Virus record (IMG/VR): IMGVR_UViG_3300031758_000123
Location: 1-49,367 of that record
Source of the DNA: a virus
Direction: 5' to 3' (one strand)
Length of the DNA: 49,367 bases
Position numbers and translations under genes: made by a program. Of the stretch, positions 3,603 through 47,140 are shown one piece after another (within the stretch, counting starts at the first letter, position 1; every line of letters begins with the position of its first letter). The notes beneath the pieces were generated by a model. The model was not told where the DNA came from, made no database searches, and saw only the letters and a list, made by a program, of their open reading frames with translations.

Positions 3603-5267
3603 TTAGAATGTTCCACCCTCTAATGTTGTGGACCAAACAGGAGTTCCAGAAGAATTTACGGTTAATATTTGACTTGACCAATCTTGATCAGCGCCTTCAG
3701 CTCCTGCAGCTGCTGTAACTTGTAATGCTCCTGTTCCATTTCCATATATGATACCTTTTGTAGTTGCAGATGCAAATCCTGTACCACCTTGTGGAACTGT
3801 TAAACCTGATATTGCTGAACCTGTTGCAGCAGTTAATCTACCATAAGCATCAACAGTTACAGAAGTTATTGTATTGTTTGTGGCAAGAGAACCTGTTAGT
3901 GTATAAGTTGTGTTTGCAAGAGAAGAAAATCCTTCTGCGCCAGCAATTAATATACCACCTGTAGTATAAGAAGAAGAACCGGTACCACCACGAGCATAAG
4001 GAAGAACACCAGAAATTAATTGAGAGGTGTCAATTGCAATATTTTCTACAGTTGCGGATGTAGCTCTACCATAATCATCAACTGTTAATGCCGATATTGT
4101 TCTGTTATTTCCTAAAGTTGGTCCTGTTAGTGTGAATAAAGAATTGGCTAAAGACTTTAATGCATTAGTTCCATCACCAATAACAATTTGTCCAGCTGAA
4201 AATGTATTTGTTCCTGTACCACCAGACCCTACAGGTAGTGCTGTGCTTAAAGCTAAAGAACCAGAAGAAATTGTTGTTGCAATTACATTACCTTTGAAGT
4301 AATTGGCATTGACATTTGCCTTTGCAAAAGTAGCGTGTGAAGTGTCAATTGTATTATTTGAATTTATTTCTGGATCATAGTCAGCAAATACATAATATTC
4401 TTGGTTTGTGGCACTTCTAAAGAAACCAGTATGTGAATTTACTCCTATGCCACCATGGTGAGCAATAAAGCCAATGTCTACTGTGTCAGTAGTATAATTA
4501 TTGCCAGCTAAAAATATTAATGAATCTTCAAGTCTTAATGTACTTGTTTCAATTACTGTTGAGTTACCCAATACGGTTAAGTTACCAGTAACAACTAAAT
4601 CTTTATCTGCGGCAATTCTTAAACTAGTATTGATTATCTGTTCGCCACCTGAAGTGTTTGCACGAACAACGGTATTATCAACACTTAATGTTACATTATC
4701 AAGACCAACATTACTTGTAATACCTTCACCACCAATTACAGTAAGTGTATCGCCGCCAGAAACTTCACTTGTTCCTGAGTCACCATTCAAAGTAAAGGAT
4801 GTTGAAATTGGATTTGTTGTAACACTTGTAATACGACCATTTGCAGCAACAGTAATTGTTGGAATCGATGTGCCAGAACCAAATGTTCCTGCGGTTGTTA
4901 CATTTGAAAGATTTGCAGAAAGTGCTACGGCTCCTGTACCATCAAATGATACAGCTGATGCAATAACTTCACCACCTATGGAGAAGTTTCTGCCTGTTTC
5001 TAATGCAGTTGCGGTGTTTGAATTACCATATAATCTACCATAAAATGCACCATTTGCATCTCTTTTAACTAATGTATTAAATGCATTTGCAGCTGTTGCC
5101 GTTCCAATGTCTGCTATAGAAGTACCACCAATCGCTATTGGACCACCACCGGTAGTACCAATAAACAAGGTATTTGAAGCATAGGAATACGCCAGTTCAC
5201 CAGGTGATAAAGATGTGGGTGTACTAGTGACTAGTGATCGTTTTATCTGAATTCTTGTATTGGCCAT
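3603..5267 (-). CDS. Tail fibre protein with beta module and GGTG repeats
   Basis: The protein has 554 residues and starts MANTRIQIKRS, like the neighbouring giant fibre (MANTKIRLK), which suggests the same attachment point on the virion. Residues about 225-330 form the 'GNLTVLGNSTV ... DIGFIAHHGG ... GFFRS' module shared with other fibres. The C-terminal part has three 'GGTG-x(n)-GxxxxG' units typical of phage tail fibres (near residues 350, 430 and 490). It ends LEGGTF. An AAGGA ribosome site precedes the ATG. A late-promoter-like AATAAATA lies 27 nt upstream. Role inferred: a structural fibre of the adsorption apparatus. Confidence 0.75.
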   Translation of the reverse strand: MANTRIQIKRSLVTSTPTSLSPGELAYSYASNTLFIGTTGGGPIAIGGTSIADIGTATAANAFNTLVKRDANGAFYGRLYGNSNTATALETGRNFSIGGEVIASAVSFDGTGAVALSANLSNVTTAGTFGSGTSIPTITVAANGRITSVTTNPISTSFTLNGDSGTSEVSGGDTLTVIGGEGITSNVGLDNVTLSVDNTVVRANTSGGEQIINTSLRIAADKDLVVTGNLTVLGNSTVIETSTLRLEDSLIFLAGNNYTTDTVDIGFIAHHGGIGVNSHTGFFRSATNQEYYVFADYDPEINSNNTIDTSHATFAKANVNANYFKGNVIATTISSGSLALSTALPVGSGGTGTNTFSAGQIVIGDGTNALKSLANSLFTLTGPTLGNNRTISALTVDDYGRATSATVENIAIDTSQLISGVLPYARGGTGSSSYTTGGILIAGAEGFSSLANTTYTLTGSLATNNTITSVTVDAYGRLTAATGSAISGLTVPQGGTGFASATTKGIIYGNGTGALQVTAAAGAEGADQDWSSQILTVNSSGTPVWSTTLEGGTF

Positions 5268-44801: not shown

Positions 44802-45373
44802 AGACTTCTAATAATAATAATTTTACGATTTTCACCTGTAGGTTTTACAAATAATTCTTTTAATTGTTCTCCTGTATGCCATTTCATACTAGAAGATTTG
44901 TGTGCAGGAAGACCAGATGTTTCTCCAATCTTTGTCCAATTGTCTGCAAGATATACGGCACCATTTTTGCCTGCACCAACAAATGTAATGATATGTTTTA
45001 GATCATCACCATATTTTTCTTTCCACGCAGTTGGAGCTTTTTCTCTTAGTTGTTTCAACACTTGGGAACCAGCATTTTTAACTGATCTATTAAAACAAAA
45101 TCTCCAATTGTTTGCTATTGTATTGAATACTCCTTTGTATTCTTCTTTAGATACACCGAGATATTTTAAAATATCTTTTGGTGGTGGATATACAGAAGAA
45201 CCAATACCTATCATGCCAATACATTCACCTAACAAACCATTATCTAAGTAAATCAACCAATCTATTCTTCTGCCTACCGAAGAATTGGATGCAACATAAG
45301 AGTGGTGCGTTTCAATAATATCTTTGACAATCTCTTTTTGTTCTTTGGTCGTTACTTTTACCAATTCAATCAT
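44798..45373 (-). CDS. Mom/DUF4338 (DruA)-like GNAT-fold protein
   Basis: The protein has 191 residues. 'SSVGRRIDWLIYLDNGLLGE', 'CIGMIGIGSSVY', 'NNWRFCFNRSVKNAGSQVLK' and 'IITFVGAGKNGAVYLADNWT-KIGETSG' reproduce the order of motifs in DUF4338/DruA proteins and in Mom-type acyltransferase-fold DNA-modifying proteins: 'GR-x-x-x-Lv', 'GfGSp', 'lnR', 'G-x-vY-x-A-x-NW-x-x-iG-x-T'. Mu Mom modifies adenine to block restriction; DruA is part of a defence system. In this phage the first is the more natural fit (protection of its own DNA), and the gene lies among DNA replication genes. The choice between families is not settled by eye. Confidence 0.55.
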   Translation of the reverse strand: MIELVKVTTKEQKEIVKDIIETHHSYVASNSSVGRRIDWLIYLDNGLLGECIGMIGIGSSVYPPPKDILKYLGVSKEEYKGVFNTIANNWRFCFNRSVKNAGSQVLKQLREKAPTAWKEKYGDDLKHIITFVGAGKNGAVYLADNWTKIGETSGLPAHKSSSMKWHTGEQLKELFVKPTGENRKIIIIRSL

Positions 45374-45591
45374 ATAGGCAATTTAGATGTTTTCTTCAAT
45401 AGATTTAGTTCTTGTGCTTCTTCTCTAATTTTAGATTTGAGTGCGGCAGAGATTAATGTTGCGGCCATTTCAACTTCAAGTCCAGTTTCATTGCAATGAT
45501 GGCAAATGGCATCCATGTAACCAATGCTTTCTTCCTTTGCCATATCTTCAATTAAACCACTAAATTGTTTTATTTCACTTTGCGTAGGCAT
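45370..45591 (-). CDS. 33: Late transcription coactivator gp33
   Basis: The protein has 73 residues. 'IEDMAKEESIGYMDAICHHC', then 'EVEMAATLISAALKSKIREE' and 'AQELNLLKKTSKLPI' is a clear gp33 signature of aquatic T4-like phages. T4 gp33 binds the beta flap of RNA polymerase and couples gp55-dependent late transcription to the gp45 clamp. It overlaps the next gene by four bases and is in a cluster with gp59 and gp32, as in T4. Confidence 0.85.
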   Translation of the reverse strand: MPTQSEIKQFSGLIEDMAKEESIGYMDAICHHCNETGLEVEMAATLISAALKSKIREEAQELNLLKKTSKLPI

Positions 45592-46115
45592 TAAATGTCC
45601 CTATAAAAAATATGATTACCAATTCTACTTACAACAAACTTTTTATTCCAACCAGGATTAACATAGTTGGCATGATAATACAATGCGTTTGTTTTAGCAA
45701 TCATATCATGTAATATAGGTTCGGTCAATGCTCTACGAGCAATTAATACCGATTCTTCCCAAGCATATACATCCTTTACTACCATATTTTTAAAACAAGT
45801 CCAAGAAAACTGGCAGGTTGTTTTTTGATTGTATTTTGTTTTCTGATATACAACTTCACATACATCTTTTGGAAAGTCAGGATCGTTTACACGATTCATA
45901 GTAACCTGTGCTACTGCAAGTTTACCCTCATATTTTTCTTTTGCAGCTTCATGGTAAATATTTTTAGCCATGCATTGCAATTGTTTATTAAAATCACCAC
46001 TAACTTGCATTTGAATTGCTTTTGTTGTAGTGAATGAAAAAGTTGGTAAAGAAAGAACCAATATTAGTAAACCAAAAATGATTACGATTATGGGAAAATT
46101 CTTGATTGTTTGCAT
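45591..46115 (-). CDS. SleB/CwlJ-type cell wall hydrolase (endolysin)
   Basis: The protein has 174 residues. A signal-anchor helix lies at residues 7-27 (FPIIVIIFGLLILVLSLPTF). The catalytic domain contains 'CMAKNIYHEAAKEKYEGKLA' (Glu56), 'AVAQVTMNRVNDPDFPKDVC', 'TTCQFSWTC' and 'HDMIAKTNALYYHANYVNPG', the Hydrolase_2/SleB family order. It has a strong AAGGAG site, with an 8-bp hairpin directly upstream. An anchored export signal would place it in the periplasm; this is a common lysis enzyme of aquatic T4-like phages. Confidence 0.85.
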   Translation of the reverse strand: MQTIKNFPIIVIIFGLLILVLSLPTFSFTTTKAIQMQVSGDFNKQLQCMAKNIYHEAAKEKYEGKLAVAQVTMNRVNDPDFPKDVCEVVYQKTKYNQKTTCQFSWTCFKNMVVKDVYAWEESVLIARRALTEPILHDMIAKTNALYYHANYVNPGWNKKFVVSRIGNHIFYRDI

Positions 46116-46129
46116 CTTATCTCCTTGAC

Positions 46130-46151
46130 GGGGATGGACGAATCCATCCCC
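46130..46151 (-). promoter_or_regulatory. GC-rich hairpin next to the endolysin ribosome site
   Basis: Perfect 8-bp stem GGGGATGG (46130-46137) / CCATCCCC (46144-46151), loop ACGAAT, ending 3 nt from the AAGGAGAT site of the SleB gene. No U run follows on either strand, so it is not a standard terminator. A role in mRNA stability or timing of lysis-gene translation is possible. Confidence 0.6.
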
Positions 46152-46158
46152 AACCCAA

Positions 46159-46434
46159 TTACGAATTAGATTTTTTAATCTTTGTTTCAGTTTGTGGGAT
46201 TTGTGATACGAATCCGTTTAATGCGTTTGCTTTTGCAATGATTTCGGATTCACTTGGATATGCTGGAAATCCAGGGTGATCTGGAATTGTTCCGCCATTC
46301 AGTTTAGCAACTTCTATCTTGGTTGACCAATCGTTGCTAATTACCTCACGCTTACCATAATATTCTTCTGAAAGCATATCTTTCGCCATTTTTAAAAGTT
46401 CTAGGCGAATCTCGAACGGTGTCATATTACTCAT
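46159..46434 (-). CDS. Conserved phage protein, unknown function
   Basis: The protein has 91 residues. 'NMTPFEIRLELLKMAKDMLS' at the N-terminus is recurrent in small proteins of aquatic T4-like phages. The middle (NDWSTKIEVAKLNGG) is hydrophilic and the C-terminal third is Lys/Ser-rich. No membrane or signal segment is apparent. AGGAG is present 8 nt before ATG. It lies between the tmRNA and the endolysin and is co-oriented with both. No role can be given. Confidence 0.6.
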   Translation of the reverse strand: MSNMTPFEIRLELLKMAKDMLSEEYYGKREVISNDWSTKIEVAKLNGGTIPDHPGFPAYPSESEIIAKANALNGFVSQIPQTETKIKKSNS

Positions 46435-46491
46435 AGTATTTCTCCTGTGTTTGTGTGTAATTACCAGCGGTTTGTGTGTATGCTGGTCTAT

Positions 46492-46499
46492 TATTTAGT
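46492..46499 (-). promoter_or_regulatory. Late-promoter-like box ACTAAATA
   Basis: Minus-strand ACTAAATA, 58 nt upstream of the 91-residue gene and just after the end of the tmRNA hairpin. Same box as at 8934-8941. Confidence 0.3.
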
Positions 46500-46556
46500 A
46501 AAATGTGGTGATTGATTCTGTTGCCAAGTTCAATCACCGAAAACTCCGGTCAGCGA

Positions 46557-46589
46557 TTAAGCTGCCAGTGCGAACTTTTCATCGTTTGC
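46557..46589 (-). other. tmRNA tag reading frame, ANDEKFALAA
   Basis: The frame GCA AAC GAT GAA AAG TTC GCA CTG GCA GCT TAA encodes ANDEKFALAA. It has the ANDE...ALAA plan of bacterial ssrA tags with a C-terminal LAA/ALAA degron recognised by ClpXP-type proteases. The resume codon GCA is preceded by GTAAAC. Confidence 0.92.
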
Positions 46590-46678
46590 GTTTACTTTGT
46601 TTTGATTATTACGCCTTGTCATGGCGATTCTCCAATTGCCTATTAGCCACGCTGTCGAATCTATTTCAGGCCCATCAG

Positions 46679-46759
46679 AAGCATACTGCCTACACCCACT
46701 TACGATTGGCGTAACCAGCGGTAGTGCAAAACCTGCTCATGCGTTCTTACAGTATGCTT
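46679..46759. repeat. Inverted repeat closing the tmRNA spacer
   Basis: AAGCATACTG (46679-46688) and CAGTATGCTT (46750-46759) are perfect 10-nt reverse complements. In the minus-strand precursor they lie just outside the CCA end and just before the GGGCCTG start, so they extend the acceptor stem and hold the two mature ends together until the spacer is removed. Confidence 0.85.
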
Positions 46760-46825
46760 ATGGTGGACCTGACCGGTACTGCCCCGGTGTCCAACGCATC
46801 GTTCAACAACCTTCAACGAATTCTT

Positions 46826-47140
46826 TTAACTTTTTTTCTTGCTTTCAATGTATGGTTGCATCTTACTTCCGACAGATGTAATACAATACATATTTTCAGA
46901 TGTTATTTCAACAAGTGTCCAAGATCCTGTTTTTGAATTAACAAACATAACAGCAGGATGAAAAACTTTGGTGTCTCCTGAAACTCTATGGCCTACACCA
47001 GTAGCAAAAGGTTCTTCATTATTATCAGATAAAACCTTTTGCATCGTTTCACGATCAAGACACATTGCTTGAAATAATACTAATTCATTTGCAAATGCAA
47101 TTGTTGGTAAAAACAATAAACTGATTAATAGTTTTTTCAT
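46826..47140 (-). CDS. Small secreted phage protein
   Basis: The protein has 104 residues. A clear signal peptide MKKLLISLLFLPTIAFA is followed by NE, and the mature part contains two cysteines in 'QAMCLDRETMQKVL' and 'SENMYCITSVG', which could pair in the periplasm. The sequence 'FHPAVMFVNSKTGSWTLVEI' is seen in similar small periplasmic proteins of aquatic phages. Its ATG follows the stop of the thermonuclease gene (TAAATG). Function unknown; a co-exported partner of the nuclease or lysis apparatus is possible. Confidence 0.65.
   Translation of the reverse strand: MKKLLISLLFLPTIAFANELVLFQAMCLDRETMQKVLSDNNEEPFATGVGHRVSGDTKVFHPAVMFVNSKTGSWTLVEITSENMYCITSVGSKMQPYIESKKKS

Follow-up and report, generated by a model that had tools for sequence, protein, structure and literature searches.

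A complete, well-preserved and genuine circularly permuted tmRNA gene lies on the minus strand at positions 46836-46506 of the window, the whole stretch of DNA analysed, which is a 49,367-base IMG/VR virus contig and probably a fragment. The gene very probably gives rise to a two-piece tmRNA that is functional, is carried by the phage and belongs to the permuted (alpha/beta-proteobacterial) kind, and it represents a well-supported further case of a two-piece tmRNA encoded by a phage.

Identity and Class of the Element

When the whole window was searched with cmscan, the RF04321 model (tmRNA_permuted) matched the minus strand at 46821-46557 with 110.7 bits (E=7.8e-21), covering model positions 1-213 of 213, where the gathering cut-off of the family is 47 bits. 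This match and the parts read from the sequence bear out the original prediction of a full permuted tmRNA on the minus strand, and the 391-nt gap between genes in which it had been placed is found at 46435-46825. As checks, that prediction had proposed an Infernal scan with further Rfam families and the presence of a CCA upstream of the tag. In the same scan, RF01849 (alpha_tmRNA) passed at 46915-46507 with 73.2 bits, above its gathering cut-off of 50, and RF00023, the standard one-piece tmRNA, gave no match at its cut-off. RF01850 (beta_tmRNA) reached 82.7 bits at 46861-46499, just 1.3 under its cut-off of 84. Regarding the order of the parts, the CCA at 46763-46761 precedes on the minus strand both GGGCCTG, which starts at 46673, and the tag at 46589-46557, as in permuted genes; the one-piece order, with the 5' tRNA half, the tag and the 3' half in a single molecule, is reversed in the window. 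In addition, the minus strand at 46800-46500 folds more stably than shuffled sequences (z = -4.84).

The gene shares with the RF04321, RF01850 and RF01849 families the tRNA-like domain, the permuted order, the TTCGAC motif and the tag. It is intermediate between the alpha and beta types, as its T loop and 3' hairpin are of the alpha type, while the tag of 10 amino acids and a slightly higher score are on the beta side. Since the alpha and beta models score no more than near or moderately above their cut-offs, the gene has diverged from its bacterial counterparts.

Anatomy of the Gene

The extent of the gene (46506-46836) is an estimate based on the block shared with relatives, including the 94% identity to the related IMG/VR locus L076, and on the RF04321 and RF01850 matches. 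All of its parts are on the minus strand, where the T-arm, discriminator A, CCA, spacer, GGGCCTG, AGATTCGAC and ANDEKFALAA of the original prediction could each be read at the positions given for them. The acceptor piece (46761-46825, with an approximate 5' end) comprises the 5' strand of P2, the T-arm, the 3' strand of the acceptor stem, A73 and the encoded CCA, as indicated by the sequence, the RF04321 alignment and covariation. Its T-arm, at 46772-46788, has the stem ACCGG/CCGGT, which covaries, and the loop GGCAGTA, and it is followed at 46761-46771 by the acceptor strand CAGGTCC (46771-46765), the discriminator A (46764) and CCA (46763-46761). The loop had been described as unusual, a view that does not hold, because it agrees with the alpha_tmRNA consensus GGCgGUA and has the same sequence in 11 of the 57 phage loci retained among the matches listed, with GGCGGTA in 9 more; an aberrant T loop was thus rejected, GGCAGTA being ordinary for permuted tmRNAs of the alphaproteobacterial type.

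After an intervening spacer of 87 nt (46674-46760), which is predicted to fold as a hairpin prolonging the acceptor stem (AAGCATACTG...CAGTATGCTT), the coding piece occupies 46506-46673, as supported by the sequence, RF04321 and covariation. It starts with the 5' acceptor strand GGGCCTG at 46673 and carries TTCGAC, the tag and a 3' hairpin, with AGATTCGAC read directly from the sequence between GGGCCTG and the tag. The acceptor stem has 7 bp and includes the pair G3 (46671)-U70 (46767), in agreement with the G-U pair originally proposed, besides the discriminator A and the encoded CCA. The tag frame, at 46589-46557, reads GCA AAC GAT GAA AAG TTC GCA CTG GCA GCT TAA, with an alanine resume codon (GCA), the peptide ANDEKFALAA with its hydrophobic AA end and a TAA stop, and it differs among relatives by synonymous changes. 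The 3' terminal hairpin, at 46507-46538 with the loop CTTGGCAACAGAA, is predicted by folding and agrees with the 3' end and consensus of alpha_tmRNA. Three plus-strand open reading frames that overlap the gene (46621-46881, 46505-46714 and 46724-46936) were taken as chance frames.

Related Loci and Covariation

At least 119 IMG/VR stretches matched a pattern modelled on the beginning of the coding piece, and a strict filter for a 7-bp acceptor stem, CCA, T stem and tag retained 57 loci, including the window, among the matches listed. The filter required a paired stem, G-U being allowed, and a CCA, and it required neither a G-U at position 3-70 nor A73; both the G3-U70 pair and the discriminator A are invariant in all 57 phage loci among the matches listed. 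RF04321 scored above its cut-off in 23 of the 26 records tested.

Covariation was assessed in an alignment of 19 diverse phage loci, with the spacer taken out and 45 predicted pairs. Standard pairs make up 93.9% of the pair cells, compared to 35-44% when the partners are slid by 1-3 columns, a figure biased towards the structure, which was itself drawn from that alignment. More weight can be given to the compensatory changes, which are found at 26 of the 45 pairs, some of them in the acceptor stem, in the T stem and in P2. In the relatives the tag frame is open and shows synonymous codon variation.

Four IMG/VR loci (L060, L076, L003 and L015) share with the window the acceptor strand GGGCCTG, a T loop GGC(A/G)GTA and a tag ANDE(K/R/S)FALAA, with 79-94% identity across the aligned tmRNA block. 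The spacers of L060, L003 and L015 differ from that of the window, and the phage backbone of L076 has diverged from it. Other loci, among them L010, L028, L037, L088 and L117, have the coding-start motif together with a tag of the form AN..., and the script found no matching CCA acceptor piece upstream in them; these may be standard-order or rearranged tmRNAs.

ARAGORN, with which the published phage census was made (PMC9004378), called no tmRNA in the window. In a run on 59 phage loci, it detected 49, and those that escaped it were the window, L003, L015, L060, L076 and five others, after which its result for the window was judged a false negative. As a subgroup that includes the window escapes this program, such phage genes are undercounted.

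Spacer Replacement and Probable Two-Piece Processing

L060 and L003 match the window with 94-98% identity in their acceptor and coding parts, whereas their spacers have been replaced, with an identity to the window spacer of 57.5% in L060 and 50.5% in L003, compared to 47% and 49%, respectively, in shuffled controls; that is, at the chance level in L003 and near it in L060. Meanwhile, the spacer ends of both loci keep a stem, which in L003 is made of different letters, AAGAATTATGGC/GCCATAGTTCTT with one mismatch in place of AAGCATACTG/CAGTATGCTT of the window. A replaced spacer with a preserved end stem between conserved mature pieces is what would be expected of a spacer that is held as a hairpin and discarded, and this comparison supports a precursor that would be cleaved into two RNAs.

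The spacer is also 99% identical to that of the window in L076 and 90% in L013, where the coding piece is merely 57% identical, and from this contrast in L013 the spacer seems to be exchanged independently of the mature parts, each as a module of its own.

Genomic Setting

The contig carries T4-like baseplate and tail genes. Upstream of the tmRNA are a secreted-looking ORF of 104 amino acids, an SNase-like nuclease and a PD-(D/E)XK exonuclease, and downstream are an ORF of 91 amino acids, a cell wall hydrolase (PF07486), a gp33-like gene, a gp59-like helicase loader and gp32. The 104-residue ORF (46826-47140, minus strand) has a signal-peptide-like start and no family match, and it ends with a stop 5 nt ahead of the Rfam match, so it is probably co-transcribed with the tmRNA. 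The T4-type late promoter TATAAATA has three sites in the window, fewer than expected by chance, and for this reason no promoter is claimed. The 91-residue ORF (46159-46434, minus strand) is conserved in position in 15 IMG/VR relatives with 32-91% identity and has no PHROG, Pfam or INPHARED match. Its assignment as gp33 was rejected, as the gp33-like late promoter transcription regulator is at 45370-45591 on the minus strand (phrog_254, E=2.8e-18). The hydrolase, with a signal-like N terminus, is located at 45591-46115, between the tmRNA and gp33. The gp32 protein is nearest (54-56%) to those of marine cyanophages and of Pelagibacter phage HTVC008M.

Most of the 56 related loci in the matches listed have neighbours of this kind. 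Among them, the exonuclease was found on the same strand within 6 kb in 39, gp59 in 36, the hydrolase in 30, gp33 in 27 and gp32 in 25, counts that are held down by short contigs. In addition, tmRNA distances track the distances of gp32, gp59 and the exonuclease, with Mantel r of 0.83-0.85 and none of 5000 permutations reaching these values. A large clade of T4-like phages from aquatic habitats has the gene at the same genomic place, which points to lasting selection. At a finer scale, L076 shares 94% identity with the window over the block 46836-46506, and the flanking proteins are 43-48% identical; since the ends of this block coincide with those of the tmRNA gene, exchange of the gene as a cassette is suggested.

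A broader reading is that the permuted tmRNA became fixed in the takeover region (near gp33/gp59/gp32) of a large T4-like clade, where the mature parts and the spacer swap between backbones as separate modules and so retune ribosome rescue or tagging to the host. This reading is speculative and rather doubtful at present; if true, the tmRNA may be a dedicated infection factor and not a copy of a host housekeeping gene.

Proposed Function and Competing Explanations

Following general tmRNA biology, the spacer of the folded minus-strand transcript would form a hairpin on top of the acceptor stem, host RNase P would cut before G46673 and a 3' nuclease would trim back to the encoded CCA that ends at 46761. 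The two resulting RNAs would stay joined through the acceptor stem and P2. The alanyl-tRNA synthetase of the host would then charge the molecule via G3-U70, and host SmpB and EF-Tu would deliver it to stalled ribosomes, where translation would resume at the GCA at 46589 and append (A)ANDEKFALAA as a degradation tag of the ClpXP type. The host would presumably supply SmpB, AlaRS, RNase P and ClpXP, because smpB was not found in the 49-kb window or in 19 related contigs, all of them possibly fragments. Phage nucleases would cut mRNA during infection, and host tmRNA may run short. In such a setting, the likeliest benefit, and the weakest step of the scheme, is probably that ribosomes are kept free and incomplete proteins are cleared during infection.

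Instead of supporting host trans-translation, the permuted tmRNA could interfere with it, as a decoy or competitor, or retag host proteins. Expression of a tagless phage form (DS6A) in E. coli is reported to inhibit the tmRNA of the host (PMC11915505), and the authors of the Melnitz study proposed selective tagging of host proteins (PMC9004378). However, in the window the tag frame, the resume codon and the LAA end are intact and conserved, features that a mere decoy could do without, which leaves host interference as an unlikely, minority explanation. Host proteins may still be retagged for turnover. Even less probable is a captured host tmRNA gene that persists as a non-functional passenger of recombination. 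Prophages frequently insert at ssrA and acquire pieces of it (PMC9004378), and the lack of smpB alongside, in the contigs mentioned above, would fit such an origin; a passenger would be hard to reconcile with functional parts that are all intact, covariation across 19 loci, a tag frame kept through synonymous changes and the long association with the phage backbone seen in the Mantel comparisons. Moreover, two exact patterns searched in bacterial genome contigs found no match, one of them being the first 20-mer of the coding piece.

Misassembly or misbinning of bacterial DNA into a phage contig could be considered for an IMG/VR record of 49 kb that is probably a fragment, but it is hardly credible here, given the T4-like genes on both sides (the exonuclease on one, gp33, gp59 and gp32 on the other) and the same order in many independent contigs and in the Melnitz genome. 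A functional phage-borne tmRNA is thus the preferred reading.

Relation to Known Phage tmRNAs

The kind of gene and its setting were already known. The OM43 phage Melnitz was reported to carry a two-piece tmRNA located upstream of its late-transcription coactivator, and the same study counted 53 two-piece structures among public phage genomes, of which 50 came from marine or aquatic samples (PMC9004378, 2022). RF04321 was later described with 79 bacteriophage tmRNA sequences listed (PMC11915505, 2025). What is added here is a close group of genes that is invisible to ARAGORN and a neighbourhood that is broadly conserved.

In the record of Methylophilales phage Melnitz EXVC044M (MZ577097), the tmRNA is annotated as SsrA at 45984-46436, and the order is exonuclease, two ORFs, tmRNA, gp33, gp59 and gp32. 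Both this phage and the window thus have a permuted tmRNA in a T4-like Kyanoviridae phage, with the exonuclease upstream and gp33/gp59/gp32 downstream on the same strand. Besides these similarities, the Melnitz tag is ANDNYVPVDYALAA, compared to the shorter ANDEKFALAA of the window, a glutamine riboswitch is predicted in Melnitz (PMC9004378), whereas cmscan found no Rfam riboswitch match in the window, and the window has extra genes, the 91-residue ORF and the cell wall hydrolase, between the tmRNA and gp33.

One-piece tmRNAs such as those of mycobacteriophage cluster C1 are, like that of the window, encoded by the phage. One-piece phage tmRNAs are known with the standard gene order.

A beta-type permuted tmRNA (RF01850, 94.5 bits) was also observed in Synechococcus phage BUCT-ZZ01 (ON615601.1, approximately 116.9-117.3 kb; positions 4790-5190 of locus L122), where no RNA feature is annotated. 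Its tag is ANDETFSMALAA, many tRNA genes lie around it, and the phage was isolated on S. elongatus PCC 7942.
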